Shown here: piece by piece, positions 2,424 to 26,299 of the stretch
How positions within the stretch are numbered: position 1 is the stretch's first letter
Layout of the letters: every line of letters starts with the position of its first letter
Assembly: GCA_902615325.1 (NCBI GenBank)
Contig: CACMOJ010000004.1
Span: 1-64,000 of the forward strand
Direction: 5' to 3'
Source of the DNA: an uncultured SAR116 cluster alpha proteobacterium
GTDB lineage: Bacteria; Pseudomonadota; Alphaproteobacteria; Puniceispirillales; Marisalimonadaceae
Length of the DNA stretch: 64,000 bases
Made by a program: the position numbers and the translations under genes
Notes under the pieces: model-generated
Databases searched by the model: none
What the model was told of the DNA's origin: nothing
The model's input: the letters and a program-made list of their open reading frames with translations, nothing else

Positions 2424-3950
2424 ATGAATAGATGTTTTAGCATGGATGATGTTTCAAAAAATAATAATTTACAAGCGTTATTAAATTATTATGATCAAAA
2501 AAATTTTGAAAAAGTAATCTCAAAATGTAAAAAATTAATCCCCTTAAACAATAAATCTTACATATTACATAGTTTAATGGGTGCGTCTTATGAAGCATTA
2601 AATTGTTACAACAAGGCAATTTTGAGTTACAAAGAATCTTTAAAAATAAATAATAAGATCTTTGAAACATATTTTAATGTAGGTAACATTTATCTTAAAA
2701 AGTTTGATTATAATAATGCGATAAAAAATTATAAAAAGGCATTATTATTAAATAAAACATATTCAGTTGCATACAATAATTTAGGTATCGCCTACTTAGA
2801 AAGTAATGATTTAAAGAATGCAGAAAAAACCTTTAAAAATTTAATGAAAATTGATCCAAATTTCTCCCAAGGAATTTGCAATCTTGCAACTGTATTTCTA
2901 CAAAATAATAATCATCCTGAAGCTTTAAAATTTTATAAATTGGCAATGAAATGTAAAACTTCTATAGAAGAAAAAATAGAAATACAAAAAAATTTATCTT
3001 TGTGTCAATTAAAAACAGAGAACTTTACTGAAGGCTGGAAAAATTATAAAGCAAGGTTAAATACCATTGATTATGTAACATTAAGTAATCTTCCATTTTT
3101 TAATTTTGAAACAAATTATAAAAAAATAATTATACTTCCTGAACAAGGAATTGGTGACGAAATTTTCTTTTCTAGATTTTTTAATGATTTGAAAAAAATA
3201 AATAAAACATTTTATTATTTATGTTCTAAAAAACTGAGCTTGCTTTTTAAAAACTCATTTCCAAACATAAATTTCATAGATAAAACAAAATTTATTCAAA
3301 ATAAAAATTTTCAACAATATTGCTTTAACAAGTATTGTTTTGATAGTCAAATTCACATTGGTGATATAGCAAGTTTTTTTATTAATAATAATAAGGATAT
3401 TGAAAGTAGATCTCAAAAATTCTTAAAAACAAATAAATTAATTCCGAAAAAAATCAATGAAATTTTGCCAAAAAATAAAGTAATATGTGGTCTTTCATGG
3501 ATATCTAAAAATAAAAATACTGCCTTAAAAGGAAAGAACAAAGAACATGTTTCAACAAGTTTAATCAATTTAAAACCTTTACTGACTCAAAAAAACTTTT
3601 ACTTCATAGATTTAAATTATGTAGATACACTTGATCAAAGAACTAAATTTTTTAATAATCATGGCATTAAAATTGTAAAGTTTAACCAAATTGATAATTT
3701 AAATAATTTAAATGAATTATCATCACTAATAAATAGTTGTGATTTTGTAATATCTGTTAGTAATACGACAGCACATTTATCTGCTGGATTAGGCAAAAAA
3801 ACTTTTTTACTCTTACCAAACAAAAATAAGAAAATTTGGTACTGGAATTCTAATTTTGGTAATAGTAGTTGGTACAATTCAATGCAAATATACGAGAATT
3901 TTAAAGAAAAAGATCTAAGAGAACTAATTAAAATATTAAACAATGAGTAG
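2424..3950 (+). CDS. TPR protein with GT9-like glycosyltransferase domain (1)
   Basis: A 508-residue protein. Residues about 15-200 are tetratricopeptide repeats, for example a unit ending NNLGIAYLESNDLKNAE. Residues about 230-505 resemble GT9/heptosyltransferase-like domains: PEQGIGDEIFFSRF near 237, GLSWISK near 355 and a terminal CDFVISVSNTTAHLSAGLGK nucleotide-sugar-site motif. Such TPR-glycosyltransferases often lie beside alphaproteobacterial flagellin genes. I infer flagellin or flagellar glycan glycosylation. It overlaps the next, paralogous gene by eight bases, so the two are translationally coupled. Start chosen: first ATG after the sigma-54 promoter; an in-frame ATG at 2442 is an alternative. 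Confidence 0.75.
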   Translation: MNRCFSMDDVSKNNNLQALLNYYDQKNFEKVISKCKKLIPLNNKSYILHSLMGASYEALNCYNKAILSYKESLKINNKIFETYFNVGNIYLKKFDYNNAIKNYKKALLLNKTYSVAYNNLGIAYLESNDLKNAEKTFKNLMKIDPNFSQGICNLATVFLQNNNHPEALKFYKLAMKCKTSIEEKIEIQKNLSLCQLKTENFTEGWKNYKARLNTIDYVTLSNLPFFNFETNYKKIIILPEQGIGDEIFFSRFFNDLKKINKTFYYLCSKKLSLLFKNSFPNINFIDKTKFIQNKNFQQYCFNKYCFDSQIHIGDIASFFINNNKDIESRSQKFLKTNKLIPKKINEILPKNKVICGLSWISKNKNTALKGKNKEHVSTSLINLKPLLTQKNFYFIDLNYVDTLDQRTKFFNNHGIKIVKFNQIDNLNNLNELSSLINSCDFVISVSNTTAHLSAGLGKKTFLLLPNKNKKIWYWNSNFGNSSWYNSMQIYENFKEKDLRELIKILNNE

Positions 3951-5787
3951 TAATATGAATTTAAAAGAAAATGAAATTTCAGTTGATGATTTAGTAGATA
4001 ATTTTCATTCTTCAAAATTTGATAAAGTATTAAATTTATCAAATTTATTACTAAAAAAAGAACCAAATAATTACATCATATATAATATTTTAGGTGCAAC
4101 ATATAGCAGCTTACAAAATTTCAGAAAATCTATCACATATTATAAAAAAGCTTTGAAAATAAATCCGAATTTTTCACACGGTTATAACAATTTAGGAGTC
4201 TCTTACCAACATATAAATGATATTGATTCTGCATTACAAAGCTATGAAAAATCAGCTCAATTAAACCCAAAATATCCTGGGCCTTTATATAATATAGCTA
4301 ACATATTTTTTGAAGAAAAAAAAGCTGAAAGAGCTATTGAATATTATCAAAAAGCAATAGAATTATCTCCTAATTTTTTAGATGCTTTTAATAATATGGG
4401 AAATTGTTATTTATCTCTTGGAAAATATGATGAATCTATCGATTGTTTTAATAAAATTCTTAAAATTGATAAATTTTATTATAAAGCATATAACAATTTG
4501 GGCCAGGTTTTAAATCTATTAGGAAAATATCAAGAGGCAGAAGAAGTTGTTTTAAAGGGTATAGATCTATGCCCTAAATTTATAGAATTTTATGTAACGC
4601 TCGGACACTCATATATTTCAAACTATGACTTATTAAAATGTATTAAAATTTATAAAAAGGGACTCAAAAGAGACAATGATAATCCTGTAATATTAAACAA
4701 TATTGGACACTATTATATGATTAGAAAAAAATATAAAATAGCCGAGAAATATTTCAAAAAAGCCAAATTAATCAAAAAGGATTATAATGATGTAATAAGA
4801 AACCTTGCACTTTGTCAATTAGCTATAAATAATTTTAAAGAGGGTTGGGAAAATTATAGCTTAAGATTTAATTGTGATGATGTATTGGTACCTCAATATT
4901 TACCAAAATGCAAAAAATACAATTTGAAGGATAGATTTAAAAAAGTTTATATTTGGACTGAACAAGGTATTGGAGATGAGATTTTTTTCTCAAGATTTTT
5001 AAATAATCTTAATACAAAAGAAACTGAATTTTTTTTTCGACCACAAATAAAATTAATACCACTTTTTAGAAATTGTTTCCCTAATTTAAATATTTTAGAC
5101 AGTAAAGTTGATCCAGGTGGCTTTTCTGCAAAAAATGATTTAAATGACTTTAATTTTGATGGCCATATAGCAATTGGAAGCTTGGCTGAATTATTTGCAA
5201 AAGATGAAAAAAAAGTTAGAGCTAGTTCTAAAAAATTTTTAAATCTAAATCATCCAGTTAAACTTACAATTGAAGATCAAATTCCAGAAAAAAATTTAGT
5301 GTGTGGAATTTCTTGGTTTACAAAAACATTGAGTTCAAAAGCAAGTTTAAAAATGTATAAGGAGTTTTTATCTACTACGCTAAATGATTTAAGAAAAATT
5401 TTAAAAATCAAAAATATTTCCTTTATAGACCTGCAATATGGGAATACTGCAATTGAAAAAAATAATTTTTATAAAAATAATGGAGTTAAAATAATTAAAG
5501 ATGGCAATATTGATAATTTCAATGATTTTGTCGGGTTATCTAGCTTAATAGAGAGATGTGATTTTGTTATTTCAGTAAGTAATTCAATTGCTCATTTGTC
5601 TTCAGCTTTAGGAAAAAAAACATATTTAATGCTACCAGGAGGAAAAGGAAAAATGTGGTATTGGAATTCTGATAAAAATGAAAGTTTGTGGTATGAAAAA
5701 ATGAAAATTTTTGTTCAAAAACAACCTGGATGTTGGAAATATGTAGTCGATGAAATTTATAATGATATTAATAATTCTTATCTATAA
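3943..5787 (+). CDS. TPR protein with GT9-like glycosyltransferase domain (2)
   Basis: A 614-residue paralogue of the preceding gene with a longer array. About eight TPR units cover residues 15-300; some end in NNLGVSYQHIND or FNNMGNCYLSLGKYDES. The glycosyltransferase-like domain follows: TEQGIGDEIFFSRF near 340, GISWFTK near 455 and CDFVISVSNSIAHLSSALGK near 545. The TPR part probably holds the protein substrate while the C-terminal domain transfers sugar. That division of labour is inferred from the architecture. The gene starts inside its neighbour, and the FkbM gene follows from its own promoter. Confidence 0.75.
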   Translation: MSSNMNLKENEISVDDLVDNFHSSKFDKVLNLSNLLLKKEPNNYIIYNILGATYSSLQNFRKSITYYKKALKINPNFSHGYNNLGVSYQHINDIDSALQSYEKSAQLNPKYPGPLYNIANIFFEEKKAERAIEYYQKAIELSPNFLDAFNNMGNCYLSLGKYDESIDCFNKILKIDKFYYKAYNNLGQVLNLLGKYQEAEEVVLKGIDLCPKFIEFYVTLGHSYISNYDLLKCIKIYKKGLKRDNDNPVILNNIGHYYMIRKKYKIAEKYFKKAKLIKKDYNDVIRNLALCQLAINNFKEGWENYSLRFNCDDVLVPQYLPKCKKYNLKDRFKKVYIWTEQGIGDEIFFSRFLNNLNTKETEFFFRPQIKLIPLFRNCFPNLNILDSKVDPGGFSAKNDLNDFNFDGHIAIGSLAELFAKDEKKVRASSKKFLNLNHPVKLTIEDQIPEKNLVCGISWFTKTLSSKASLKMYKEFLSTTLNDLRKILKIKNISFIDLQYGNTAIEKNNFYKNNGVKIIKDGNIDNFNDFVGLSSLIERCDFVISVSNSIAHLSSALGKKTYLMLPGGKGKMWYWNSDKNESLWYEKMKIFVQKQPGCWKYVVDEIYNDINNSYL

Positions 5788-8704: not shown

Positions 8705-10486
8705 ATGCCATCAATAAATTCTAATACTGGAGCAATGTATTCTGTAAATGCAACCCAGAAAATTGAAAGAGAGATGAGTACATCTATGAAAAGACTAGCT
8801 TCTGGTGAAAGAATCACTAATGCTGGTGATGATGCTGCTGGTGCTGCTATATCTGACAGGATGTTATCACAAGTAAAAGGCTTGGAAATGTCTATTAGAA
8901 ATGCAGGAGATGTTATTTCTATGGCGCAAGTTTCTGAAGGAGCATTAGGAGAAATTGGAGATATCTTACAAAGAGTAAGAGAACTTGCAATACAATCAGC
9001 CTCTGATACGTATAATGCTACTGAAAGAAATTATATACAAACTGAAACAAATCAACTTTTATCAGAATTTGATAGAGTTACTAAGGATACAGAATTTAAT
9101 GAAGTTAATGTTTTAGACGGATCATTTGCAAGTAAAACATTTCAAATTGGTGTAAGAAAAGGTGAAAATGCGAGTATTTCAGTTAGCTCAATGAGAATAG
9201 ATGCTATTGGCGCATATCAGCAAACTACTGACATGTCTACAACTGATACCGATATAGCAACTAGTGCGAAATTAGTAACAAGTGCTTCAGATTCTGGTCA
9301 TGTTGAAGCTGACACAGTAACCATTAATGGTCAATTTGGAAATAAAGCACTTAGTATTACAGCAGATATGAGTGCAAAACAAGTTGCTGACCTTGTTAAT
9401 CAAAATTTTGACAGCACAGGTGTAGATGCAGTAGCTTCTACTCAAGTAAAACTTGAAGCTGTAGCAAATTCTGTTTCAGGATCTGCTGGAACAGTAACTG
9501 TTGCATTTGATTTATATGGTAAAAATACTGATGTTGTAAATGTTTCGGCTGCTATAACAACTGGAACTACCAAAGCGACTTCAAATATAGAACCGCTTCG
9601 AGATGCAATAAACGCTTACACTGCTCAAACAGGCATAGAAGCCGTTTTGTCTTTAGATAAATCAAATTTAATTTTAACTCAATCTGAAGGTTATGACATA
9701 AAAATTGTAGATACTAATTTTGATTTAGAAACTGTAGATGATGTTGTTACAACCTCAGTTGATGTAGCATCAACTGGAACAACTTTGATGTTAGCTTCTA
9801 CAACTGGAGTTGAAGTAGGTGATTTTGTTGTTGTAACTTCTGATCATTCACCTGCACCAGCTGGCGCTTATATTACTTCAATATCTTCTGGTGCTCACGT
9901 TGTTCTATCAGAAGCAATCAGTGGTACTATAGATGCGAATGCGACTGTAAATATTGTTAATGCTGAAAGAGCATTAGCAGTCACAGGTTTAAGTGAAGAT
10001 TTATCTACTTCAGGCATGGGAGCAACTTTAATAGATAAAGATCAAACAACACACACTTTTGACTCTACACGCGTGACAGGACAAGTTACTTTTAATTCAA
10101 CAGCTCAATTTACTGTCCAAGCAGACACTGACAAAGGACTATTCACAACCGCACCTGGGTCTGCAACCTTAAAAAAACTTAGCACAATAAAACTTAATAC
10201 AAGAACAGCTGCCGTTGATGCTCTAGTAGTCCTAGATAAAGCTTTAGATAGAATAAATTTAGAAAGAGCTAAGCTAGGAGCTATAATGAGCCGTATGACA
10301 AAAGCAATTGATAATTTATCCAACGTGTCCATGAATACAACTGAATCAAGAGGAAGAATAGTTGATGCTGACTTTGCACTTGAATCAGCAAATCTAACGA
10401 AGTCTCAAATTTTACAACAGTCTGCAACTGCTATGATAGCTCAAGCAAGTAGATCAATGCAAACTGTACTAGAATTATTAAAATAA
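8705..10486 (+). CDS. fliC: Flagellin (1)
   Basis: A 593-residue filament subunit. The N-terminal D0/D1 region is conserved (LASGERITNAGDDAAGAAIS; VRELAIQSASDTY; residues 1-170). The C-terminal D1/D0 region matches (TKSQILQQSATAMIAQASRS; about 505-593). The middle holds a flagellin-IN-like domain (about 200-345) interrupted near 350-418 by a beta-rich segment with the motif TTGVEVGDFVVV. It is longer than minimal flagellins because of this exposed region, the likely glycosylation surface. GGAGG lies six bases from the ATG. The next gene begins ten bases after its stop, so flagellin and a glycosyltransferase/methyltransferase may be co-transcribed. Confidence 0.92.
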   Translation: MPSINSNTGAMYSVNATQKIEREMSTSMKRLASGERITNAGDDAAGAAISDRMLSQVKGLEMSIRNAGDVISMAQVSEGALGEIGDILQRVRELAIQSASDTYNATERNYIQTETNQLLSEFDRVTKDTEFNEVNVLDGSFASKTFQIGVRKGENASISVSSMRIDAIGAYQQTTDMSTTDTDIATSAKLVTSASDSGHVEADTVTINGQFGNKALSITADMSAKQVADLVNQNFDSTGVDAVASTQVKLEAVANSVSGSAGTVTVAFDLYGKNTDVVNVSAAITTGTTKATSNIEPLRDAINAYTAQTGIEAVLSLDKSNLILTQSEGYDIKIVDTNFDLETVDDVVTTSVDVASTGTTLMLASTTGVEVGDFVVVTSDHSPAPAGAYITSISSGAHVVLSEAISGTIDANATVNIVNAERALAVTGLSEDLSTSGMGATLIDKDQTTHTFDSTRVTGQVTFNSTAQFTVQADTDKGLFTTAPGSATLKKLSTIKLNTRTAAVDALVVLDKALDRINLERAKLGAIMSRMTKAIDNLSNVSMNTTESRGRIVDADFALESANLTKSQILQQSATAMIAQASRSMQTVLELLK

Positions 10487-10495
10487 AGGAAATTT

Positions 10496-13390
10496 ATGAA
10501 TTACATGAATGCAATTAATAATTCTCAAGATTATCTTGAGAGTATGAAGAAATCCTTTTTGAAATCAAAAGAATATTTAAAAAATAAAAATAATAATTAC
10601 AAAAGTGTTCATTGGAATAATTTTTTGCCAGAAAATTATGAAGTAATTTTTTCAAATAATGATTATTGGAATAATTTTTTAAGAAATGCTATTTCTATAG
10701 GTTGTAATGACGTATTAGCTTTTTATTTACAAGATAAAAATATTTCACCGCACAAATTTAAAAAGTCAAAATTCAAAAATAAAGATTTTAGCGAAATCAT
10801 ATTTCAATCAAAGCATTCCTCTACCGAGGAGAAAGAATTAATTAATTTGGCAACCGCTGTTATTAATTATGTTGGCACAGATTTCTTTTTTGCAAATCAA
10901 ATGTCAAATATTGGAAACCCAAGATTTTTAAAAATAAACGCTGAATGCAATAAAAAAATTGAAAATTTAAGAGCAAATAAACACGACATGTGTGATATTT
11001 ATCATTATAAATTGTTTAAAGAAAATATTTTAGATAAAATTAATACTGATAATTTAATTATCGCTGAGATTGGTGCTGGATACGGTGGTTTTGCATCAAA
11101 GGTCATAAGAAATAAGCAGTTAAAATATGTAATTTTTGATTTACCAGAAGTAAATGCACTTCAATATTATTATTTAAGTAAAAATTTTCCTGAAAAGATT
11201 ATTGTTGATTATGATACTTTTGTCAGAAATGGAAGAGATCTTAATCAGAAATTTGATATATTAATTCTTCCACCTTGGGAAATAGAAAGTTTCAAAAAAG
11301 ATTTTTTTAATATTTTTGTTAATATTAGATCTATGCAAGAAATGAATAAAAGTACAATAAAATTTTATTTTCAAAATATTCAAAATAATATTAGAAATGG
11401 CGGGTTATTTTTTAATTTAAACCGATATCAAAAACCTATAGGTAAAGAAATAATTAAATTTGAAGAATTTCCTTACGATTGTAAATGGTCAACTTCTTTT
11501 TATCAAAAATCTCAACTACAGGATTGTCATATTCTTATTACAAAGAGAGTTAAAAATAAAAAAACTTTTATATTAGAAAATGAAATCAAGCTATCAGAGA
11601 ATAATACTCATACAACTGAAAGCAAGCTTAAAGAAATTGATATTCAAAACAAAATTATAAATGATAATCTATTACAGTTAATGAAATTAGGTAGAAATGT
11701 TGACGTTAAATCTTTTGAAAAAAATTATCAAATAGAAGATATTAACGACCCTACTCTACTTTATATCTTTGGAACCAATAGATTACTATTAAACGAATAT
11801 TATGAAGCAAAATTGTATTTAAAAAAATCTGTAAAACTTAATAACAATTTTTGTGAAGCTTTTGCAAATTTAGCAGTTATTTTTGATAATGAAGAGGATT
11901 ATGATAATGCACTTTTTTATTACGATAGAGCACTTGAAATCAATCCTTCACATTCAACAACTATAATAAATCAATCTCATATTTATAACAAAAAGTTACA
12001 ATCTGAGAAAGTTATAGAAAACTTGTTAAAATTACCAAAAAGTTTGTATGACATTGAAGTCTGTAATTTATTTTCAAAAAACTATTTTAGATTAAATGAT
12101 TTTAAAAATGCACTTTATTTTTCAGAAAAAGCTCTAAAAAAAGATCCAGAAAATATTGTAGCTTTAAACAATCTTGGAAGAGCCTATTTGAATTATGAAG
12201 TAAACAATAAGACAAAAAAAATTGATTACTTAAATAAAGCTTTAAAATGTTTTAAAAAAGTTTTCATTATTGATCCCTCTTCAATTGAAGCATTATATAA
12301 TATCGGAACTGCTTATGAAAAACTTTCAAATGAAAAAAAGGCAGAAGAATATTATAGAAAAGTTCTTAATATTAATCCAGATTATAAGGATGCAAGTATC
12401 AATCTTGCTTTAATACTACTAAGAAAAGGAGAGTTCTCAGAAGGCTGGCAAAGATATGAGGATCGTCTTTTAATGGATAATCCTGAAAGAAAAAAAATTA
12501 TTGGGCCAAATACTTCCCTTCCCTTTTGGAGTTTAGATTGTAAAGATAGCAAACTATTTGTATGGCCTGAGCAAGGTATTGGTGATACTATTTTCTATTC
12601 CTCTCTTCTTAATGAACTCAATGAAAAATGCTCTTCTATAACATGCGTTATAGAACCTAGATTAAATAAACTTTACAAAAGATCTTTTCCTAATATTAAT
12701 TTTGGAAAACCCGGCGATGAGTATCAAGAAGATGACTTCACCCATCAACTGGCAATTGGAAGCATTCCAAAATTCTTTAGAAATAATTTAGAAGATTTTT
12801 CTAAGTCTCCTTACGCCTACCTTAAAGCTGACCTAAATCGTTCACTTAAAATTCAAGATGAAATAAAAAATAAAAATGACTTTACAGTTGGTATCTCTTG
12901 GACATCTCAAGGCAGCCAAAAAGATTTTAAATCTGTCGATATAAATCTTATAATAAATTGTTTAAAAAAACTTCCTGTGAAAATTGTTAACCTACAATAT
13001 GGTGAAGTTGATGAAGAAATATCAATGGTAAAAAAACAACATAACATTGATATTCTACAATGTCCTTCAGTTGATATTTATAATGATTTTGATGGATTAG
13101 CTAGTTTAATGGCAGCATGTGATGTTGTTTTAACAACTCCTAATGTTAATCAGACTATTGCAAGTGCACTTGGAGTACCAACATTTTTACTTTTGTCAGA
13201 TGATCCTAGTTTTAGATGGTTAAACAAAGGAATGGATTCGATATGGCATCCCAATACAAAATTATTTAGACAAGACAAAAATGGTGATTGGACGCAAGCT
13301 TTTAATCAAGTATCACAAATAATCTTTAATCTATACGTTCAATCTTTTCAAAACGATATTGAAACAATAAAACAAAATGTTGAAGATTAA
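10496..13390 (+). CDS. Fusion: sugar O-methyltransferase + TPR + GT9-like glycosyltransferase
   Basis: A 964-residue three-part protein. Residues about 1-350 resemble the putative sugar O-methyltransferase family, with SAM motif AEIGAGYGGFASKV near 190 and VIFDLPEVNALQYYYLSKNFP-type following sequence. Residues about 395-660 are TPR units. Residues about 670-960 are a GT9-like domain with PEQGIGDTIFYSSL near 690, GISWTSQGS near 798 and MAACDVVLTTPNVNQTIASA near 880. AAGGA precedes the ATG, ten bases after flagellin 1. The final 282 codons are almost identical in DNA to those of the next gene. I infer transfer and methylation of a flagellin sugar. Confidence 0.75.
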   Translation: MNYMNAINNSQDYLESMKKSFLKSKEYLKNKNNNYKSVHWNNFLPENYEVIFSNNDYWNNFLRNAISIGCNDVLAFYLQDKNISPHKFKKSKFKNKDFSEIIFQSKHSSTEEKELINLATAVINYVGTDFFFANQMSNIGNPRFLKINAECNKKIENLRANKHDMCDIYHYKLFKENILDKINTDNLIIAEIGAGYGGFASKVIRNKQLKYVIFDLPEVNALQYYYLSKNFPEKIIVDYDTFVRNGRDLNQKFDILILPPWEIESFKKDFFNIFVNIRSMQEMNKSTIKFYFQNIQNNIRNGGLFFNLNRYQKPIGKEIIKFEEFPYDCKWSTSFYQKSQLQDCHILITKRVKNKKTFILENEIKLSENNTHTTESKLKEIDIQNKIINDNLLQLMKLGRNVDVKSFEKNYQIEDINDPTLLYIFGTNRLLLNEYYEAKLYLKKSVKLNNNFCEAFANLAVIFDNEEDYDNALFYYDRALEINPSHSTTIINQSHIYNKKLQSEKVIENLLKLPKSLYDIEVCNLFSKNYFRLNDFKNALYFSEKALKKDPENIVALNNLGRAYLNYEVNNKTKKIDYLNKALKCFKKVFIIDPSSIEALYNIGTAYEKLSNEKKAEEYYRKVLNINPDYKDASINLALILLRKGEFSEGWQRYEDRLLMDNPERKKIIGPNTSLPFWSLDCKDSKLFVWPEQGIGDTIFYSSLLNELNEKCSSITCVIEPRLNKLYKRSFPNINFGKPGDEYQEDDFTHQLAIGSIPKFFRNNLEDFSKSPYAYLKADLNRSLKIQDEIKNKNDFTVGISWTSQGSQKDFKSVDINLIINCLKKLPVKIVNLQYGEVDEEISMVKKQHNIDILQCPSVDIYNDFDGLASLMAACDVVLTTPNVNQTIASALGVPTFLLLSDDPSFRWLNKGMDSIWHPNTKLFRQDKNGDWTQAFNQVSQIIFNLYVQSFQNDIETIKQNVED
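12533..13378 (+). repeat. 846-bp near-identical repeat, copy 1
   Basis: Matches 13981-14826 without indels at a constant offset of 1448 bases. It is almost base-perfect apart from a divergent patch near 12703-12735 and a few changes near 12645-12650. It encodes the glycosyltransferase domain of the 964-aa fusion. The abrupt left edge lies within the frame. Confidence 0.9.
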
Positions 13391-13395
13391 TTTAA

Positions 13396-14835
13396 GTGTA
13401 CCATCATTCAAAAACCCATAATATTAACAGTAAAGATTTTAAAAAATCAATTTATAATCTTTTAATTTCTTATAAATTTAAAGATATAAAAGATATTGAA
13501 TTAAGTATACATAGAAACAACTTAGAAGATCCTTTTTTACTTTATGTATTTGGAACCACTAGACTCGAATTAAACGAATTAGATGATGCTGAATTTTTAT
13601 TAAAAAAATCAATTGAGATGAGTAGTTTATTTTTTGAAGCTATTGTAAATCTAGCGGTCGTGTACGAAAAAAAAAATAAAATTCAAGACGCGATAAGTTT
13701 TTACAACAAAGGCCTAGAATTGAAACCTAATCATGATGCGACACTTTTTAATATAGGGAAAATTTACGATCGTATAAAAGAATTTGAAAAAGCTGTTATG
13801 TATTATAGAAAAACTTTAGATGTAAACCCTGCATTCTCTGACGCTAGTTATAATTTATCTCAACATTTATTAATAAAAGGAATTTTTAGAGAAGGTTGGG
13901 AAAGATATGAAGATAGATTTAATGTTATTTCAAAAATTAATAGGGTTAATAAACCTGACATATCCCTTCCTTTTTGGAATTTAGATTGTAAAGATAGCAA
14001 ACTATTTGTATGGCCTGAGCAAGGTATTGGTGATACTATTTTCTATTCCTCTCTTCTTAATGAACTCAATGAAAAATGCTCTTCTATAACATGTGCTTTA
14101 GAACCTAGATTAAATAAACTTTACAAAAGATCTTTTCCTAATATTAATTTTGGAGCTGGCAAGGAAACATTTGATGAAAAAGACTTCACCCATCAACTGG
14201 CAATTGGAAGCATTCCAAAATTCTTTAGAAATAATTTAGAAGATTTTTCTAAGTCTCCTTACGCCTACCTTAAAGCTGACCTAAATCGTTCACTTAAAAT
14301 TCAAGATGAAATAAAAAATAAAAATGACTTTACAGTTGGTATCTCTTGGACATCTCAAGGCAGCCAAAAAGATTTTAAATCTGTCGATATAAATCTTATA
14401 ATAAATTGTTTAAAAAAACTTCCTGTGAAAATTGTTAACCTACAATATGGTGAAGTTGATGAAGAAATATCAATGGTAAAAAAACAACATAACATTGATA
14501 TTCTACAATGTCCTTCAGTTGATATTTATAATGATTTTGATGGATTAGCTAGTTTAATGGCAGCATGTGATGTTGTTTTAACAACTCCTAATGTTAATCA
14601 GACTATTGCAAGTGCACTTGGAGTACCAACATTTTTACTTTTGTCAGATGATCCTAGTTTTAGATGGTTAAACAAAGGAATGGATTCGATATGGCATCCC
14701 AATACAAAATTATTTAGACAAGACAAAAATGGTGATTGGACGCAAGCTTTTAATCAAGTATCACAAATAATCTTTAATCTATACGTTCAATCTTTTCAAA
14801 ACGATATTGAAACAATAAAACAAAATATTGGATAA
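13396..14835 (+). CDS. TPR protein with GT9-like glycosyltransferase domain (3)
   Basis: A 479-residue protein with TPR units at about 20-160 and a GT9-like domain from about 195 (PEQGIGDTIFYSSL near 207). The C-terminal 280 residues are nearly identical to those of the preceding 964-aa fusion, while the TPR part is clearly divergent. The frame first opens at a GTG at 13396 right after an in-frame stop, with no ATG until much later, so GTG is used without an obvious ribosome site. Translation may be coupled to the upstream gene, whose stop is five bases away. Likely flagellin glycosylation, by context. Confidence 0.7.
   Translation: MYHHSKTHNINSKDFKKSIYNLLISYKFKDIKDIELSIHRNNLEDPFLLYVFGTTRLELNELDDAEFLLKKSIEMSSLFFEAIVNLAVVYEKKNKIQDAISFYNKGLELKPNHDATLFNIGKIYDRIKEFEKAVMYYRKTLDVNPAFSDASYNLSQHLLIKGIFREGWERYEDRFNVISKINRVNKPDISLPFWNLDCKDSKLFVWPEQGIGDTIFYSSLLNELNEKCSSITCALEPRLNKLYKRSFPNINFGAGKETFDEKDFTHQLAIGSIPKFFRNNLEDFSKSPYAYLKADLNRSLKIQDEIKNKNDFTVGISWTSQGSQKDFKSVDINLIINCLKKLPVKIVNLQYGEVDEEISMVKKQHNIDILQCPSVDIYNDFDGLASLMAACDVVLTTPNVNQTIASALGVPTFLLLSDDPSFRWLNKGMDSIWHPNTKLFRQDKNGDWTQAFNQVSQIIFNLYVQSFQNDIETIKQNIG
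13981..14826 (+). repeat. 846-bp near-identical repeat, copy 2
   Basis: Partner of 12533-13378. Identity drops sharply at both boundaries. This fits recent duplication or ongoing gene conversion of the glycosyltransferase domain, with the TPR domains kept different. Confidence 0.9.
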
Positions 14836-15035: not shown

Positions 15036-16904
15036 TTAAAAATCTAATATGTATAAACCACCCCTGATAAATTGATTTTTATCTTTACGGAGATCCTGTG
15101 TTTCAAAATGACGTAATTTATAGTTAAATTTTTTACATAAACTTTCAATATACTTTTTTGAATGCGAGTAACGCCCAGATCGTTCAAGAAAAAAACCATC
15201 TCCGTCATAATCTTCTGTCGAAAAAGCTAACTTTCCACTTGTTTTGTTGCGAGATTTTATACATTTGAATATATCAGACAAATCTCCAATATAAACGAAG
15301 ACGTCAGTTGAAACAAAATAATCAAAATTCAAACTCGCATTTGATAGGTAGACTAAAATATCTTCTTTTATTAATTTATTATAAATGTCTTTTTTCTTTG
15401 CTTCGTCGAGCATTTTTTCTGATAAATCAATTCCCTCAAGATGCTCGCAAAATTGCTCAATTTCCATTCCAAACAAACCAGTGCCACATCCTAAATCCAT
15501 TATAGAACCCAATAAATCAGATTTACTGTCTTTTATGATCATTTCTGCGATGGCTCTTGGAATTTTATATTTAAGTTTGTCAACCAAAGAACTTTCAAAA
15601 TTAGCAGCATAATTATCAAAAAGCCCTTCAACGTAATCACGAGGTGCAATTGCAGTTGTTTTTCCAGTCAGAGCCGAAAGCATATGTTGAGCTGACAAAA
15701 GTTCAGGCTCCAATTCTATTGCCTGCATATAGCTCGCTTTAGCCTCTTCTAATCTATTTAATTTTTGGAGCATATTCCCCAAATTATTGTAGGCAAGGGC
15801 GTAGTCTGGTTTAAATGCTATCGCTTGTGTATAACTTGATTCAGCCTCATCTAATCTACCTAATTCTTTTAGAGTGTTACCCAAGTTATTGTGGGCCTCA
15901 GCATAATCAGGCTTCAATGATATCGCTTGTCTATAGCTTGTCTCTGCCTCATCTAATCTGGCTAATTTCTCAAGCATAATACCTAAGTTGTAATGAGCTT
16001 CGGCAAAGTCAGGCTTAAATGTTATCGCTTGTGTGTAACTTACTACAGCTTCGTCTAATCTTCCTAGTTCTTTGAGCATATTACCCAAATTATTATGGGC
16101 TTCGACATAGTTAGGTTTCAATGATATCGCTTGTCTATAGCTTGTCTCTGCCTGATCTAATCTGCCTACTTCCTGTAGTATAGAACCTAAATTATAGTGG
16201 GCTTGTACATAATTAGAGTTAAATTTTAGCGCTTGCCTATACCTTGTCTCTGCCTCGTCTAATTTACCCAGTTCCTGGAGTATGGCACCAAAGTTACTGT
16301 GGGCTTCGGCATCTTCAGGTGATAATTCCATAACCTTTTGACAGGCAGATAATGACTCAGTAACTCTACCTGTCTGTTTGAGGATAGCACTGAGCACTTT
16401 CCACCCAAATGGATGTTCAGGATATTCATTAGTCATGGATAGCGCTAATCGCTCTGCTTCACCAAAGCGACCATTTTGATAATGTTCTAAAAGACTATTT
16501 AATTGTTGCTGAGATGGATTAGAACTATGTCCATTTTCCGTTTGAGGTACAGAGAGTATTTTAGCCTGCAAAGCATGAAGCTTCTCACCATCAATACCCT
16601 GAGTTTTTGCCTGCTTAAAGACTTGCTTCGCATTCTCAAACTGTTGTGCTTTTATGAGGGCGTCAATGTAACTAAGCCAAAATTGTTCTATCTTTGGTTT
16701 GGCTTCAAGAGCAGCTTTAAATAATGGTAGTGCCACATCAGCTTTATTAGCTGATAATGCTAATACGCCTAGATTATGATTAGCATCCGGGTTTAAAGGC
16801 TGAGACTCCAAGATTGCCCGGTACAAACGTTCAGCATCTTGAAGCTTCCCCTCTTTATGTGCAGCAACACCCTGCTGCAATGCTTTTTCAATATTTAGTT
16901 CCAT
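15036..16904 (-). CDS. TPR protein with C-terminal SAM methyltransferase
   Basis: A 622-residue protein. Residues about 1-115 hold TPR-like units. Residues about 130-410 contain roughly eight highly regular 34-residue TPRs, several differing at only a few positions (for example YAEAHNNLGNTLKELGRLDE). Residues about 420-622 form a class I methyltransferase with IMDLGCGTGLFG near 467 and LEGIDLSEKMLDEAKKK. The N-terminus resembles TPR-methyltransferases common in GC-richer proteobacteria. Its DNA is visibly richer in G+C than the neighbours, a sign of transfer. The substrate is unknown; position suggests flagellin or its glycan. Confidence 0.75.
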   Translation of the reverse strand: MELNIEKALQQGVAAHKEGKLQDAERLYRAILESQPLNPDANHNLGVLALSANKADVALPLFKAALEAKPKIEQFWLSYIDALIKAQQFENAKQVFKQAKTQGIDGEKLHALQAKILSVPQTENGHSSNPSQQQLNSLLEHYQNGRFGEAERLALSMTNEYPEHPFGWKVLSAILKQTGRVTESLSACQKVMELSPEDAEAHSNFGAILQELGKLDEAETRYRQALKFNSNYVQAHYNLGSILQEVGRLDQAETSYRQAISLKPNYVEAHNNLGNMLKELGRLDEAVVSYTQAITFKPDFAEAHYNLGIMLEKLARLDEAETSYRQAISLKPDYAEAHNNLGNTLKELGRLDEAESSYTQAIAFKPDYALAYNNLGNMLQKLNRLEEAKASYMQAIELEPELLSAQHMLSALTGKTTAIAPRDYVEGLFDNYAANFESSLVDKLKYKIPRAIAEMIIKDSKSDLLGSIMDLGCGTGLFGMEIEQFCEHLEGIDLSEKMLDEAKKKDIYNKLIKEDILVYLSNASLNFDYFVSTDVFVYIGDLSDIFKCIKSRNKTSGKLAFSTEDYDGDGFFLERSGRYSHSKKYIESLCKKFNYKLRHFETQDLRKDKNQFIRGGLYILDF

Positions 16905-17400: not shown

Positions 17401-19191
17401 TTATCCTTGAAGTAAGGCTAATACAGTCTGCTTTGATGCATTAGCTTGAGCAAGCATTGAAGTTGATGCTTGAGCTAAAATCTGAGCTTTTGTCAATTTA
17501 GATGACTCAGAGGCAAAATCAGCATCAGTAATGTGACTTTTTGAAGCTTCTGTATTAAGAACAACATTCGTTAAATTTGAAACAACATTGTCTAATCTAT
17601 TTGAAATTGCTCCTTGTTCTGCTCTTGACAAATCAATCATACTTAATGCACCATCAACAATTGAAATAGCTTTTTCTGAGTTTGCGACAGTAGACAAGTC
17701 AACTGTACCTACATTAAGTAAAGTTGAAGTATCAGCTGATGTTCCACCACCTGTAAAGTCATCAGTTATTGCTGTTCCAGAACTTGATGTTACTGCAAAT
17801 GATTTAACTGAGTCAAATTGAACTTGACCTTTGAAGAAACCTCCAGCTGTATCATTTGCAGCTATGTAACCCGCATTTATATTACCAGCAGATGACGCAG
17901 ATATTGCTATGCTTGTAACTGTAGCAAACTGCTTAGTTGTTGTAACTGTAGCAGTGGCACCACCAGTTAAAGTTTCAACCAATGCTGAACCACTTAAATC
18001 TGTACCAGTAATTGTAACAGAAGCACCAGAGTCATCCCCAGATGATGTAACAGTAACGAGAGCACCAATGTGTGTACTCGCGTCAACAACTGATAATGTG
18101 TTAGTTTTTGCAATTGTAGCTAAAACACCTGCGGCACTAGCGGCACGAGCACCCATAACTATACCTTGAGTAGTTGATCCAGACGATAATGCTTGTGTAG
18201 TAGTTTCATCTGCACCCAAAGATCTCATTGTCATTGAAACACCAGTACTTAACATTCCAGATATTACAATGTCTTCTCCAGTTGCATGAGTTAAGAGAAT
18301 TCTACTAGAGTCAGCATTTTTCAAATTAGCTGTGATGTTAGTAGTACCAGTTTTATCATTGATAGCATCTCTTAATGCTGTAAGATCTGAAATAGATGAT
18401 ATTGCTGTTGTGTTTATAGTTGCAGAATTAGTACCATTACCAATAACAAAACCAATGTTACCTGCTCCACTTAAACCAACAATTTCAGCTTTTGTTACAG
18501 CAGAAGCTTCAACACCGGTAGATTCAGTTTGTCCATTTACAGCGGATGCAAATGTTGCAGCACTTGCGCCAGCTGCTACAGTAACTTCACCTTGACCAAT
18601 ATGACCATCAATTGTGTAAGTTTGTGAATCTATTGTTGCCGTTGAGCCAGCTACGTGAAATGCTGTACCTTCTACTCTATTAGTACCTATAGATGTTGCT
18701 TTAACATTTCTTATAGCTAAATCAATATCTTCAGATCGTTTGTGACCAACTTGTAGCTGAATGTCGTCGAATGTACCATCAAGAAGTTTCATTCCGTTCC
18801 ATCTAGTTTGATCACCAATTCTATTAATCTCAGCTAAAATCTGATCTGCTTCTTTTTCAAGGTAAATTCTGTCGGTTGCAGAATTTGTGTCGTTTGAACT
18901 TTGAACAGCAAGTTGTCTTAATCTTTGAAGTAAATTAACAACTTCCTTTTGTGCACCTTCTGCAGTATCTATCATAGCTTGGCCGTCAGAAGCATTTCTT
19001 ATTGCCTGATTAAGACCTCTTACCTGGCTTTCTAATTTATTAGAAATAGAACTGCCTGCGGCATCGTCAGCAGCAGAATTAATTCGCAAACCTGTGGAAA
19101 GTCTCTCGATAGCACTTTCTAGGTTTGCGTTATTTTTAGACATTGCAGCTTGTGCTGTTAAAGCCCCAACGTTTGTATTAATAACAGTCAT
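17401..19191 (-). CDS. fliC: Flagellin (2)
   Basis: A 596-residue flagellin distinct from flagellin 1. The N-terminal D0/D1 is TVINTNVGALTAQAA with RLSTGLRINSAADDAAGSSI (residues 2-170). The C-terminal D1/D0 ends ASTSMLAQANASKQTVLALL. The central region holds a flagellin-IN-like part (about 240-320) and, at about 370-445, one copy of the ~80-residue module found eight times in FlgK. It is preceded by AGGAGAT and a GTCGTTTT element rather than a sigma-54 site, so it is probably a late, FliA-dependent gene. FliD lies directly upstream in the same orientation. Confidence 0.92.
   Translation of the reverse strand: MTVINTNVGALTAQAAMSKNNANLESAIERLSTGLRINSAADDAAGSSISNKLESQVRGLNQAIRNASDGQAMIDTAEGAQKEVVNLLQRLRQLAVQSSNDTNSATDRIYLEKEADQILAEINRIGDQTRWNGMKLLDGTFDDIQLQVGHKRSEDIDLAIRNVKATSIGTNRVEGTAFHVAGSTATIDSQTYTIDGHIGQGEVTVAAGASAATFASAVNGQTESTGVEASAVTKAEIVGLSGAGNIGFVIGNGTNSATINTTAISSISDLTALRDAINDKTGTTNITANLKNADSSRILLTHATGEDIVISGMLSTGVSMTMRSLGADETTTQALSSGSTTQGIVMGARAASAAGVLATIAKTNTLSVVDASTHIGALVTVTSSGDDSGASVTITGTDLSGSALVETLTGGATATVTTTKQFATVTSIAISASSAGNINAGYIAANDTAGGFFKGQVQFDSVKSFAVTSSSGTAITDDFTGGGTSADTSTLLNVGTVDLSTVANSEKAISIVDGALSMIDLSRAEQGAISNRLDNVVSNLTNVVLNTEASKSHITDADFASESSKLTKAQILAQASTSMLAQANASKQTVLALLQG
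17865..18080 (-). repeat. Filament module copy in flagellin 2
   Basis: Encodes a unit of the form VTVTSSGDDSGASVTITGTD...GNINAGY. It matches the FlgK module consensus (VTI-S-G-SS-FTV-GTD-GN-E-TG-FK-ITSI-GNV-IGT). Confidence 0.6.
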
Positions 19192-19271: not shown

Positions 19272-21224
19272 TTAATCTTTATTAAATGATTCCATTAAAT
19301 TGGTCATGAATTCACCAGTATTTTTTAGGCTTGATATAGCCCCTTCCATCGCTGTAAATTGTTTTTTATATCTCTTTTCTAGGTTTTCACTAACAGTGTC
19401 AAGGTCAGTAAGTTCAAGATTAAAATCAGAAATATCTTGATTAAATTCGATCTCTTTGTTTGCTAAATCACCAGATACTTCTAAAAGTTTGTTGGTGTAT
19501 TTACTTAATTTTTCAACAAGACTTTCACCATAGAAAATAAATGCACTATCAACTGTCTGTGAGGGAGTTATTTTTATACCAGTTGCATCACCGGTCGTAC
19601 TAGCATAAAATGTATTGCCATTGTCATCTGTACCAGATGTCATGCCTAATCCATCAAGTGTAGCCGTACTATTTCCACTATCAAAAATAAAAGAATATTG
19701 TCCAGGCTTTGGTTTTATTGTTGTGTCGGAAGTGACTGACAAAAAAGCTGAGTTTGAAGAAAAAGATGAAATAAAAATTGCATTAAAGGCGTTTGGGTCT
19801 GCTAAAAAATTCTTTTTAAACTTTGCTTCATCTACTGAAAGACTTCCATCTCTGGCCGTTTGAAGGCCAAGACTTGAAGCATAATAATCATTTGAGCCAA
19901 AACCATTCAATTTTGAATTTACTAAATTATTTAATTGATTTTTTATAACTCCTATCATCACATCATCTGATAAAGGTCCCCTATTTTCCTCTAAATCAGA
20001 AGATTTTGTTAATTCCTCGAATAAAGATCTTGTTTGATTAAATGCACTTACAAATGTTTTCATATTTTCTAAAGAGGTATCTTCATCCAAAGAAGAAGAA
20101 ACTCTAAATGAAGAACTAGTTGTAGCACTAATTGACAGACTATATCCTTCAAATATGTCAGTTACAGTATTGGATGATCTATTTATACTAACTCCATCAA
20201 CAGTTAATTCTGCGTCAGAAGCAGATGTAGTTTGATGAGAATTGTTATCTGAGGTTGTGTCTAAAACTGAAAGTCCTGTGTCACCAGAATTTTCAGATAC
20301 TGTCAATCTTAAGGCACTATTTCTACCAGTATCAGATCTTAAAACAAGAGAATATGTTCCATCTCCTTTGTTAAGAACACTGGCAGTAACACCAGATATT
20401 TGGTTTAAATTATTTGCGATAGTTTCTATTGAAGAACCTTGGGTGATTGTAACTGTTTTGGATGTTTTAGCAGTATTTTTTCCAAATGTGTTGGCAGAAT
20501 GCCCAACAGTAACAGTTCCAGTTCCGACAGTTGACCCTGGGGTAATACTCGTTATAGATTTAAACACATTAATGCTTGAAACAGTTTGGCCATCTCCACC
20601 ACCTGTTACAACTTCAGTAACATTATTACCAGCCATATCTTTTCCAATTATGGTAAATGAAGTCGAGGACTGATTGCCACCAGCTGATGTAGATATAGTT
20701 ACTTGCCCGCCTAATGAATTATGACTAATTGGAGTTCCCAGTGAAGTACTTGCACTAACTGTTGTTCCTGAAGCAAATAATGAATCTGTATCTGTCGCAG
20801 TTCCATCGCTTGCAATCCAATTTCCAAAATCTATTGTTATCACTCCAGAACCAGTAGTAGATGTAGGTAAAGCAAAACCTGAAAATTCTAATGTTTGGGG
20901 AGTTGCTAAAGAAGAAATATTTATATCTGAGCTAAAAACATTTGCTTTGCTAGAATCAACAACGTTTAAAGATGTATTTACATTTCCACTTGCAGTTTTA
21001 AACTTAGATACATTTGTCAATGAAATAAGACTAGCATTAAGATTACTCAATTCACTTTTGATCTGTCCCAGAGCAGAAATATCTAAATTTTTTCCATCAA
21101 TTTTTTTGTTTATTAAATCTACTTTTGGTTTGGTTTCAGCTTCTACAAGACTTTCTACAATCTGTGTAATATTTAAACCACTTCCTTTGGTATTAATCGC
21201 GCTTACATAATCAACTGCTGCCAT
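19272..21224 (-). CDS. fliD: Flagellar filament cap protein FliD
   Basis: A 650-residue hook-associated protein 2. The N-terminus has the FliD signature (GLNITQIVESLVEAETKP, residues 17-34). The C-terminus has the coiled-coil end (FTAMEGAISSLKNTGEFMTNL, about 622-642). Between them lie a FliD_C-like region (SKLNGFGSNDYYASSLGLQ) and one module shared with FlgK at about 160-245. FliD caps the growing filament and guides flagellin assembly. AGGACG precedes the ATG. Two promoters overlap upstream, one sigma-54 and one of the GTCGTWT type. Confidence 0.92.
   Translation of the reverse strand: MAAVDYVSAINTKGSGLNITQIVESLVEAETKPKVDLINKKIDGKNLDISALGQIKSELSNLNASLISLTNVSKFKTASGNVNTSLNVVDSSKANVFSSDINISSLATPQTLEFSGFALPTSTTGSGVITIDFGNWIASDGTATDTDSLFASGTTVSASTSLGTPISHNSLGGQVTISTSAGGNQSSTSFTIIGKDMAGNNVTEVVTGGGDGQTVSSINVFKSITSITPGSTVGTGTVTVGHSANTFGKNTAKTSKTVTITQGSSIETIANNLNQISGVTASVLNKGDGTYSLVLRSDTGRNSALRLTVSENSGDTGLSVLDTTSDNNSHQTTSASDAELTVDGVSINRSSNTVTDIFEGYSLSISATTSSSFRVSSSLDEDTSLENMKTFVSAFNQTRSLFEELTKSSDLEENRGPLSDDVMIGVIKNQLNNLVNSKLNGFGSNDYYASSLGLQTARDGSLSVDEAKFKKNFLADPNAFNAIFISSFSSNSAFLSVTSDTTIKPKPGQYSFIFDSGNSTATLDGLGMTSGTDDNGNTFYASTTGDATGIKITPSQTVDSAFIFYGESLVEKLSKYTNKLLEVSGDLANKEIEFNQDISDFNLELTDLDTVSENLEKRYKKQFTAMEGAISSLKNTGEFMTNLMESFNKD
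20485..20745 (-). repeat. Filament module copy in FliD
   Basis: Encodes SLGTPISHNSLGGQVTISTS...SSTSFTIIGKDMAGN...VFKSITSITPGSTVGTGTVTVG. It is closest to FlgK modules at 31865-32115 and 32170-32410, sharing even the SLG-I-SH-GG lead-in. Confidence 0.75.
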
Positions 21225-21288: not shown

Positions 21289-22047
21289 TTAAATAATATT
21301 TGAAACTGCCTCTGCCATTTTAAAGTCAAATTCATCATCTATATCAAAACACTCAATTTTAGAAATTTTAAAACCTAAAGAATTATTGGGATCATAGGTT
21401 TTACCGTTATTATTGAAAATTTTATTTTTAATTTCATTTTCAAAATATCTTACTTTTGTCAGTCTTAAAGCTGGACTTCCTTCCAAAACTTCTGGCCAAT
21501 CTTGGCTTCTTTCAATATCATTAATTGTACTATTATTTATAGAAATAACCCCATTCTTGATCTTATCTCTATCATTTAAATTAACTACTCTGAATGGATG
21601 AGTTTTAGCTTCAGAAATCGACACACAAGAATTTATATTTTCATCGGAAAACTCTAATTTTTTAATCATTTTTTCAATTGTTGATGCTTTTATAAATGGA
21701 TTAGTTGGTGGTTTTAATCCAACAATATAGGGTAGTTTTTTATATTTTTTAAAATAAACACTTAAAGCATGAATGATCACTGATCTTGAAGAGGAGTTAT
21801 CCTGACACAAATAATCAGGTCTTTCAAAAGGTACGTTTAGATTGTACTGTTCACAAATATCTAATGTCTCTATATCATTTGTTGAAACCAAAATGTCAAT
21901 ATTTTTGATTTTTAAACATTGTTCAATTGAATAACTTATTAAAGGCTTTTTATTTAAAAGCTTTATATTTTTCCCTTTTACTCTTTTAGACCCACTTCTC
22001 GCAGGTATTATTATAAGAGTATTATTATTACAAAACTCAAACGACAT
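21289..22047 (-). CDS. CMP-sugar (acylneuraminate-type) cytidylyltransferase
   Basis: A 252-residue enzyme of the NeuA/PseF/LegF/KdsB superfamily, which couples CTP to 2-keto-3-deoxy sugar acids. The nucleotide-binding loop IIIPARSGSKRVKGKNIKLL is intact at residues 12-31, followed by KPLISYSIEQCL, LVSTNDIETL and GLKPPTNPF. It is the last gene of a five-gene operon and overlaps the preceding glycosyltransferase by 11 bases. The exact sugar acid cannot be read from the motifs. The operon lacks the usual Neu/Pse/Leg genes, so I do not use those symbols. Confidence 0.85.
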   Translation of the reverse strand: MSFEFCNNNTLIIIPARSGSKRVKGKNIKLLNKKPLISYSIEQCLKIKNIDILVSTNDIETLDICEQYNLNVPFERPDYLCQDNSSSRSVIIHALSVYFKKYKKLPYIVGLKPPTNPFIKASTIEKMIKKLEFSDENINSCVSISEAKTHPFRVVNLNDRDKIKNGVISINNSTINDIERSQDWPEVLEGSPALRLTKVRYFENEIKNKIFNNNGKTYDPNNSLGFKISKIECFDIDDEFDFKMAEAVSNII

Positions 22048-23437
22048 TCTTAAGAATTCTTTGGTTTGTGTTCAATTTAATTATTTTAAACTTCTGAATA
22101 TTGTTCTTGTAATAATCAATAAAATCCTTTTGACAATTAATTTGTATGCTGGCGAATTGGTCACTAAGTCTTTTCATTTCAAAATCTTCGTGAATTGAAA
22201 TTTCTTTTGTAAGCATATCTCCGTCAGCAACCATTCCGAAACCCTTCAATGCACTATAATAAAGATTTTTTTCTATACCTTTAGGAGCAAAAGGCAATCC
22301 GATAGGCTTATACTTTTTCTTACTTTTCTCAAAAATAGTATTTCTTATTTTTTGTCCATACATCACAACTCTTGATTTACTGTTTAAATAAAATTCAACC
22401 AACTCATCAATTTGCTTGCTATTTCTATAAGGGTAATTTTCTTGTAAAACAAAAAAAGACTTACATTTAAAACTTTTTAAAGATTTAACGACATGGGATA
22501 TACTTGGCCATTGACCAAGAATTAAAGATGATAAATGTTTTGGCCTTATTATTATGTCATCAACATCAATATCTTTAAAATTACATTTTTTTTGATCACT
22601 TCCTAGCAAAAGAATTATCTTTTTTATGTATTTTGATTGTTTAATATCATTGATTGATTTTTTAAGTAAATACATGTCCTTATCGAAGAGAAAGGGATCT
22701 AAACAAGGTAAAATTGCAATCTCAGGTATTTTTTTCTTATTTTTAATTTCATAAGATGGTGTGATAAGGTTGTTATCTTCAAGAATTCTTACTACGCCAG
22801 ATAATCTTTTTTTGTTATTATCTTGGTTTATTCCATGCCAATGATACACACTTGCGTTTGAATTATAAAATATCCTGTAGCCTTGTTTAATTCTTTCAGT
22901 AGACCAAATTCGATCTTCGATATTGGTCGCAGTTTCATCAAACTTATATTTTTTTAAAAGTTCTAATGGGATACAACTATTTGCATTATGGAAAAAACTA
23001 TCTTTAATTTGAAGTTTACTATCTAAACCAAAAGTATTCCATAAATCTCTTTTATTTGAATCAGTTGTAAATCTAAAAGGCTCTTGTCTTCCATAAACAC
23101 CAGCAAGATTATTATATTTTTTAAATGGTTTTATAAGATTTTCTAACCAATACGGATTTTTAGGTATGCAGTGTCCAGATAAAAAAACAATGAAATCCCC
23201 TTTTGCTTTCGAAACACCAAAATTAAGGGATTTACCTGGCATATAATCCCCTTTATATTGATATAGATTCACTGGATAATTTTTTAAAATATCAAGAGTT
23301 TTATCAGTACTAGCATCGTCAATTACAACAATTTCTTTATCAGAATAATTTTGATTTATAACAGCTTCTAAACAATAGGGTATCCACTGTTCTTCATTTT
23401 TAGTTCTAATGATTATGGATGCTTTAAATTTCGACAT
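22037..23437 (-). CDS. GT2 glycosyltransferase fused to a cytidylyltransferase-like domain
   Basis: A 466-residue two-domain protein. Residues about 3-215 are GT2/GT-A, with ASIIIRTKNEEQWIPYCLEA, EIVVIDDASTDKTLDIL, a nucleotide-site variant FLSGHCIPKN in place of the classic DxD, and RIWSTERIKQGYRIFY. Residues about 235-440 look like a second CMP-sugar synthetase fold: AILPCLDPFLFDKDMYLLKK, then LQENYPYRNSKQIDELVEFY, which parallels LQPTSPLRT...IDEAIE. The PARSGSKR loop is lost, so this half is probably inactive or only binds. Its start overlaps the upstream gene's stop by one base. Likely transfers the operon's CMP-sugar or an attached glycan. Confidence 0.7.
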   Translation of the reverse strand: MSKFKASIIIRTKNEEQWIPYCLEAVINQNYSDKEIVVIDDASTDKTLDILKNYPVNLYQYKGDYMPGKSLNFGVSKAKGDFIVFLSGHCIPKNPYWLENLIKPFKKYNNLAGVYGRQEPFRFTTDSNKRDLWNTFGLDSKLQIKDSFFHNANSCIPLELLKKYKFDETATNIEDRIWSTERIKQGYRIFYNSNASVYHWHGINQDNNKKRLSGVVRILEDNNLITPSYEIKNKKKIPEIAILPCLDPFLFDKDMYLLKKSINDIKQSKYIKKIILLLGSDQKKCNFKDIDVDDIIIRPKHLSSLILGQWPSISHVVKSLKSFKCKSFFVLQENYPYRNSKQIDELVEFYLNSKSRVVMYGQKIRNTIFEKSKKKYKPIGLPFAPKGIEKNLYYSALKGFGMVADGDMLTKEISIHEDFEMKRLSDQFASIQINCQKDFIDYYKNNIQKFKIIKLNTNQRILKNVV

Positions 23438-24312: not shown

Positions 24313-24313
24313 A

Positions 24314-25216: not shown

Positions 25217-25218
25217 AA

Positions 25219-26277: not shown

Positions 26278-26299
26278 ATAAATCTCCAAAACTTAATAT

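Follow-up and report, generated by a model that had tools for sequence, protein, structure and literature searches.

In FlmG of Caulobacter crescentus, a cytoplasmic protein that combines an N-terminal TPR part with a C-terminal GT-B glycosyltransferase (GT) part, the TPR part binds flagellin and the GT part alone does not; this one enzyme serves all six flagellins of an organism with several flagellin genes, according to those parts of the published account that were drawn upon here (PMC7591256). Flagellin modification has been described in other forms as well. In the portions of the literature consulted, the maf genes of Campylobacter are paralogous flagellin-modifying genes, and the flagellar glycosylation islands of Clostridium are variable and described as recombination hotspots. 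Maf, however, is another protein family, its variation is brought about via phase variation in repeat tracts, and those same portions describe no homogenisation of a GT domain with distinct TPR parts. How O-glycosyltransferases pick their protein targets is poorly understood, and a literature search that reached few subscription journals found no paper on the conversion of TPR-linked glycosyltransferases.

The window, a stretch of 64,000 nucleotides from an uncultured alphaproteobacterium of the SAR116 cluster, encodes two neighbouring proteins of the FlmG-class architecture, with TPRs in the N-terminal part and a GT-B domain in the C-terminal part (copy 1 and copy 2, Table 1). Copy 2 starts 5 nt past the end of copy 1 and consists of TPRs and the GT domain only; copy 1 contains an additional region that matches TIGR04371 with 92.8 bits (cut-off 44). 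In contrast to FlmG, where one enzyme acts on all of the flagellins (as stated in the same parts of PMC7591256), the window contains several paralogues, with one GT sequence, and the extra methyltransferase-like part of copy 1 also sets it apart.

Table 1. Positions of the features in the window and of the related genes in genome G048.
Feature	Position	Strand	Remarks
Flagellin gene 1	8705..10486	+	9-nt gap to copy 1; NCBIfam flagellin models, PF00669 match
Copy 1, NanM-like part + TPR + GT9-fold glycosyltransferase, 964 aa	10496..13390	+	TIGR04371 over cut-off
TIGR04371-matching part of copy 1 (NanM-like putative sugar O-methyltransferase)	11009..11398	+	
Copy 2, TPR + GT9-fold glycosyltransferase, 479 aa	13396..14835	+	Structure model, mean pLDDT 93.6
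Homogenised GT tract, copy 1	12532..13378	+	
Homogenised GT tract, copy 2 (residues 196-477)	13980..14826	+	
Unconverted island, copy 1	12707..12733	+	17/27 nt differ; most variable loop of the family
Unconverted island, copy 2 (residues 254-262)	14155..14181	+	Loop between strands 251-253 and 266-269
Small difference cluster, copy 1	12646..12650	+	3 nt; counterpart in copy 2 at 14094-14098
Island TPR-GT paralogue, not homogenised	2424..3950	+	
Island TPR-GT paralogue, not homogenised	3943..5787	+	
TPR + methyltransferase protein	15036..16904	-	Conserved right edge of variable segment; 85% identical in G009
Flagellin gene 2	17401..19191	-	Convergent with flagellin gene 1
Five TPR-GT genes of G048	C1:2247818, 2249410, 2251864, 2253963, 2275216		

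The segment that holds the pair, with a flagellin gene on either side, is variable, since two relatives, G009 and G012, differ at the locus and the near-identical block has no DNA homologue in relatives. The same-genus bin G009 is 91.5% identical over 13 kb and collinear with the window down to 14972, beyond which it carries other genes, namely a stretch resembling a flagellin 3' end and a cytidylyltransferase gene. In G012, flagellin 1 is kept (83% amino acid identity) and the pair is replaced by flagellin 2 and another TPR-GT. Among 57 other genomes of the family, the GT block gave only short chance-like matches at the DNA level, and an orthologous copy 1/copy 2 pair was absent. A search for the methyltransferase part of copy 1, run without a positive control, gave no match in G009, G011, G002 or G012.

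The two GT tracts align without indels at a fixed offset of 1448, with 20 mismatches in the 846-nt block, which bears out the near-identity reported in the preliminary description. Exact runs extend over 12532-12645 (114 nt), 12651-12706 (56 nt) and 12734-13378 (645 nt), and the mismatches form two clusters, one at 12646/12648/12650 and one of 17 within 12707-12733. The divergent patch previously placed at 12703-12735 is thus real in the latter form, whereas the former cluster had been missed. The upstream border is sharp, identity dropping to 53-74% per 90-nt codon window, and directly past 13378 it is at chance level. In copy 2 the block runs from residue 196 to two residues short of the C-terminus. 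In the entire bin (1.78 Mb in 63 contigs, 81.6% complete) it was found at these two sites only. The proteins are 95% identical in the GT part and 37% in the TPR part, in line with the strong difference ahead of the block noted earlier; fourfold-degenerate sites are alike in 93 of 95 cases in the GT domain and in 6 of 15 before it. The longest run of identical codons, 215, was matched in none of 2000 column shuffles.

The predicted structure of copy 2 (mean pLDDT 93.6, pTM 0.90, from a 76-row alignment) places TPR helices at residues 13-176 and the start of the GT domain at a strand at 202. By these modelled borders, the homogenised tract (196-477) comprises the whole GT domain and little else. 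In VIA-align comparisons the modelled domain adopts a GT9-type fold, matching the GT9 enzymes 3tov and 1psw with Z 17.2 over 254 residues (rmsd 3.2 and 3.5) and the protein O-heptosyltransferase TibC (4rap) with Z 16.3. The likeness to the GT9 heptosyltransferases and TibC lies in the fold of the GT domain, whereas the aligned entries cover the GT part alone and the window domain falls below the Pfam and NCBIfam cut-offs: the curated GT9 model PF01075 gave no match to it, and a weak match to TIGR04414 was below the NCBIfam cut-off. For the GT domain of G048, PF01075 scored 14.7 bits against a cut-off of 22. By E-value, the top Foldseek matches were the TPR-GT proteins SPINDLY and OGT, with whole-model TM-scores of ~0.2-0.34. 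These protein O-glycosyltransferases of family GT41 share the combination of a TPR array and a GT-B domain; the GT domain of the window nevertheless fits GT9 better.

Catalytic domains are commonly more conserved than TPR arrays, and purifying selection on the GT protein alone might be invoked to explain why the copies remain alike. Two orthologue pairs from different genomes served as controls. Between the C17 gene of the same bin and G012, amino acid identity was 71% in the N-terminal part and 73% in the GT domain, with 27 of 45 and 27 of 50 fourfold sites alike; between L066 and L084, the values were 84% and 81%, with 38 of 57 and 44 of 60. Neither pair has a break at the TPR/GT border, and a difference in constraint between the domains therefore cannot yield the pattern. 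Orthologues with 73-81% amino acid identity in the GT domain reach just 54-73% fourfold identity, in contrast to the near-complete agreement of such sites within the window tract. Purifying selection alone is ruled out by the fourfold sites together with these controls, and we regard it as scarcely credible. The suggestion that the TPR parts are diversifying was not sustained either: TPR and GT parts evolve alike in both orthologue pairs, so that the TPR parts would merely be old. Faster TPR evolution in general was rejected on the same comparison.

Synonymous identity is confined to the tract, the borders are sharp, and the orthologue controls show no counterpart. Judged from these sequence comparisons, the identity of the GT domains is due to recent non-reciprocal recombination (gene conversion) and not to selection at the protein level. 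The conversion of the catalytic domain proposed in the preliminary description is accordingly upheld by the homogenised synonymous sites, the coincidence of tract and domain borders, the unbroken orthologues and the recurrence of the pattern in G048.

The two internal islands suggest that the recipient already had a GT domain of its own, which favours conversion over a fresh duplication. In the structure model the smaller one corresponds to residues 233-235, at the end of strand 230-234, and the larger one (residues 254-262) to a loop, in the N-terminal half of the GT domain, that is flanked by a strand on either side. This loop is among the most variable regions of the family: in 74 relatives, with the window copies excluded, three of 266 nine-residue blocks, the loop included, are equally variable, and 26 sequences gave a like result. 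The loop may have escaped because it is important that the copies differ here, or conversion may have halted at it owing to the lower DNA similarity. In G048 the loop is homogenised too, so its retention is no rule, and a general need for a difference in the loop is not supported.

G048 belongs to the same order and is represented by one contig of 2.59 Mb, listed as 100% complete. Its GT domains are 97.9-99.5% identical in nucleotide sequence across all ten pairs of the five genes. In the four pairs tested, 109-113 of 111-113 fourfold sites were alike and the N-terminal parts were 37-52% identical at the amino acid level. In the TPR arrays, most 90-nt windows show 35-69% identity, with a rise in the last TPRs; the exception is formed by the first and fourth genes, which have a 100% identical 5' part in common. 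Six flagellin-like genes lie within the same 40 kb, and 12 flagellin-domain matches were found genome-wide. The copies occur in both orientations and up to ~27 kb apart, with ~19 kb separating one of them from the others. Simple unequal crossing-over of tandem copies therefore does not suffice to account for an arrangement in which copies are inverted and dispersed. Among the congeners of G048, 4 of 16 genomes had any match, G048 included; the other three contributed four weaker matches and no similar array.

In the region covered by L053 (G048:C1:2240000-2259900), positions 8960-10443 and 14331-12848 form a 1484-nt inverted repeat of 98.7% identity. This repeat runs from the end of a GT domain through the intergenic gap into the first TPRs of the neighbouring gene, and an inversion could thereby swap TPR parts. 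The shared 5' segment and the inverted block in two G048 genes hint at shuffling there. For the window, the likeness to a cassette system drawn in the preliminary description, with switching or shuffling within a population, is conjectural. The flagellin genes of this island are homogenised too, with 1086 nt that are 100% identical (1-1086 versus 2734-3819) and other blocks at 86-99%.

A single recent transfer of the 3' half onto another TPR gene, i.e., domain shuffling with no continuing homogenisation, would be enough for the window taken alone. Such a one-off transplant would agree with the absence of the pair from the other family genomes, and with the TPR part of copy 2 being weakly the best match of that of copy 1 (82 bits, versus 81 for the next). 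We nonetheless consider it unlikely, given that the two internal islands imply a prior GT domain in the recipient and that the five copies of G048, at 98-99.5% identity and with graded identity in the last TPRs, point to repeated exchange.

It is also conceivable that the second GT domain was filled in from, or collapsed onto, the first during assembly of the 63-contig bin. The exact repeat of 645 nt is difficult for short reads, the contig of the relative G009 ends near the locus, and G010 has duplicated contig ends. Such an artefact appears quite improbable, however, since both copies have unique flanks on both sides, true differences are retained inside the block, and the same architecture is present in an independent single-contig genome, G048. 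Arrays of this kind would be prone to being broken or collapsed when assembled from short reads, and their number may consequently be underestimated. In G010, contigs C19 and C59 (L050 and L051) share 3992 nt at 98.7% identity at their ends, which probably reflects strain variants or a repeat left unresolved in this bin.

The frequency of such homogenisation was surveyed with 236 GT domains from 93 genomes or loci (L004-L045, L047-L052 and L146-L154 being left out), contigs being grouped by genome via their handles and contig prefixes. At least two GT domains were present in 57 of these genomes or loci. Among 328 within-genome GT pairs, 13 reach 80% identity over 300 nt, in 4 of the 57 genomes: ten pairs in G048 and one each in the window, G031 (partial) and L082 (cut by a contig end). 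The G031 pair is partly homogenised, with a longest run of 18 codons that was matched in 6 of 2000 shuffles (79 of 2000 inside the GT domain). The last two cases are counted as weak because of the partial homogenisation and the contig-end cut, respectively. In the arrays on Azospirillum plasmids no homogenisation was seen, within-record GT pairs reaching at most ~79% over part of the domain. A search across the class, with five candidates scored per genome, gave a match at E 1e-75 in 24 of 387 genomes. On this survey, homogenisation is rare, with two strong cases, the window and G048, which belong to one order and in each of which the genes lie in a flagellin cluster. The alignments in these two genomes demonstrate, at the level of sequence, homogenisation by recombination that is limited to the domain.

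The association of TPR-GTs with flagellins was analysed in 56 genomes of the order (nominal completeness 85%, with the 82% bin of the window included). Both were present in 20 genomes, TPR-GTs only in 1, flagellin only in 17 and neither in 18. The counts of the two are correlated (rho 0.61), PF00669 also matching FlgL, so that about one flagellin too many is counted in each flagellated genome. Of the 39 TPR-GTs of the order, 15 have a flagellin gene at a distance of at most 10 kb, versus ~0.7 expected by chance, the 39 genes being non-independent and derived from few genomes.

By analogy with FlmG, we infer that flagellin is the acceptor. The domain could instead be homogenised as described, with another protein or a polysaccharide as acceptor: the remaining 24 of the 39 TPR-GTs are not near a flagellin, TPR-GTs on the Azospirillum plasmids stand beside polysaccharide genes, and the genomes reached via L130 (from a single cell of the SAR116 cluster, its GT being similar), L082, L066 and L084 contain TPR-GTs and gave no flagellin-domain match. 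The TPR-GT family is thus not tied to flagella, being present at L066 and L084, the genomes of which (G108 and G109) gave no flagellin-domain match. For the homogenised genes themselves, a non-flagellin acceptor is a serious but less likely alternative, because copy 1 lies only 9 nt behind a flagellin gene, all five homogenised G048 genes are in a flagellin cluster, and the excess of TPR-GTs in proximity to flagellins is strong.

With regard to the donor, a NeuB-family synthase (PF03102) was not found in the bin of the window (G000, 81.6% complete), in G012 or in G009, and was found in G048, G031, G025 and G038. A nonulosonate donor of the FlmG type is therefore unsupported in this organism. 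A later paper on FlmG reportedly deals with donor switching. Beside flagellar genes, the window contains at 21289-26289 a cluster of genes for a PseF-like cytidylyltransferase (21289-22047, below cut-off), a GT2 glycosyltransferase, a shikimate dehydrogenase-like protein, a DAHP synthase (over cut-off) and Gfo/Idh/MocA proteins. The cluster is 91-99.7% identical in G009 and is possibly an unusual route to a CMP-ulosonate donor, in a bin with no detected NeuB.

The best reading, by analogy, is that the proteins are FlmG-like modular protein O-glycosyltransferases, with conversion maintaining the uniformity of the GT domain. In this view, a variable glycosylation island would have held, right after a flagellin gene, two tandem paralogues of old standing, both composed of a TPR array and a GT-B domain of predicted GT9 fold. 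Recent homologous recombination of a non-reciprocal kind would then have overwritten the complete GT domain, probably that of one gene with that of the other, while the TPR arrays and two small islands escaped conversion. If both enzymes use one sugar donor, a shared GT domain would be tolerated or favoured; as in FlmG, the different TPR arrays would dock different acceptors, most likely flagellins or regions of them, and the loop retained in the N-terminal half of the GT domain may tune the choice of acceptor. We consider it probable that a converted GT domain, a common donor and acceptor-specific TPR arrays together explain the locus. A wider scheme of combinatorial glycosylation, in which one catalytic sequence kept uniform by conversion is matched to a single activated sugar and exchangeable TPR adaptors each serve a flagellin of their own, with flagellins and GTs co-homogenised as in G048, is a doubtful extension.

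Domain-limited concerted evolution is hereby seen in a flagellar island of alphaproteobacterial type. Several putative acceptor-binding arrays on one catalytic domain amount to a clean natural experiment, and such pairs, when expressed, could show how much the TPR array contributes on the one hand and the GT domain with its variable loop on the other.

Two further kinds of repeats were observed in the window. At 15688-16395, five in-register copies with a spacing of 102 nt, 61-75% identical to a reference copy, represent the TPR array of the TPR-methyltransferase gene. In addition, by eye in the translations, a module of ~70 residues ending near 'SIT...IGT' recurs in a FliD-like protein and, in many copies, in a FlgK-like protein of great length; traces of it are seen in the flagellins (regions 8705-10486, 17401-19191, 19272-21224 and 30357-37019).
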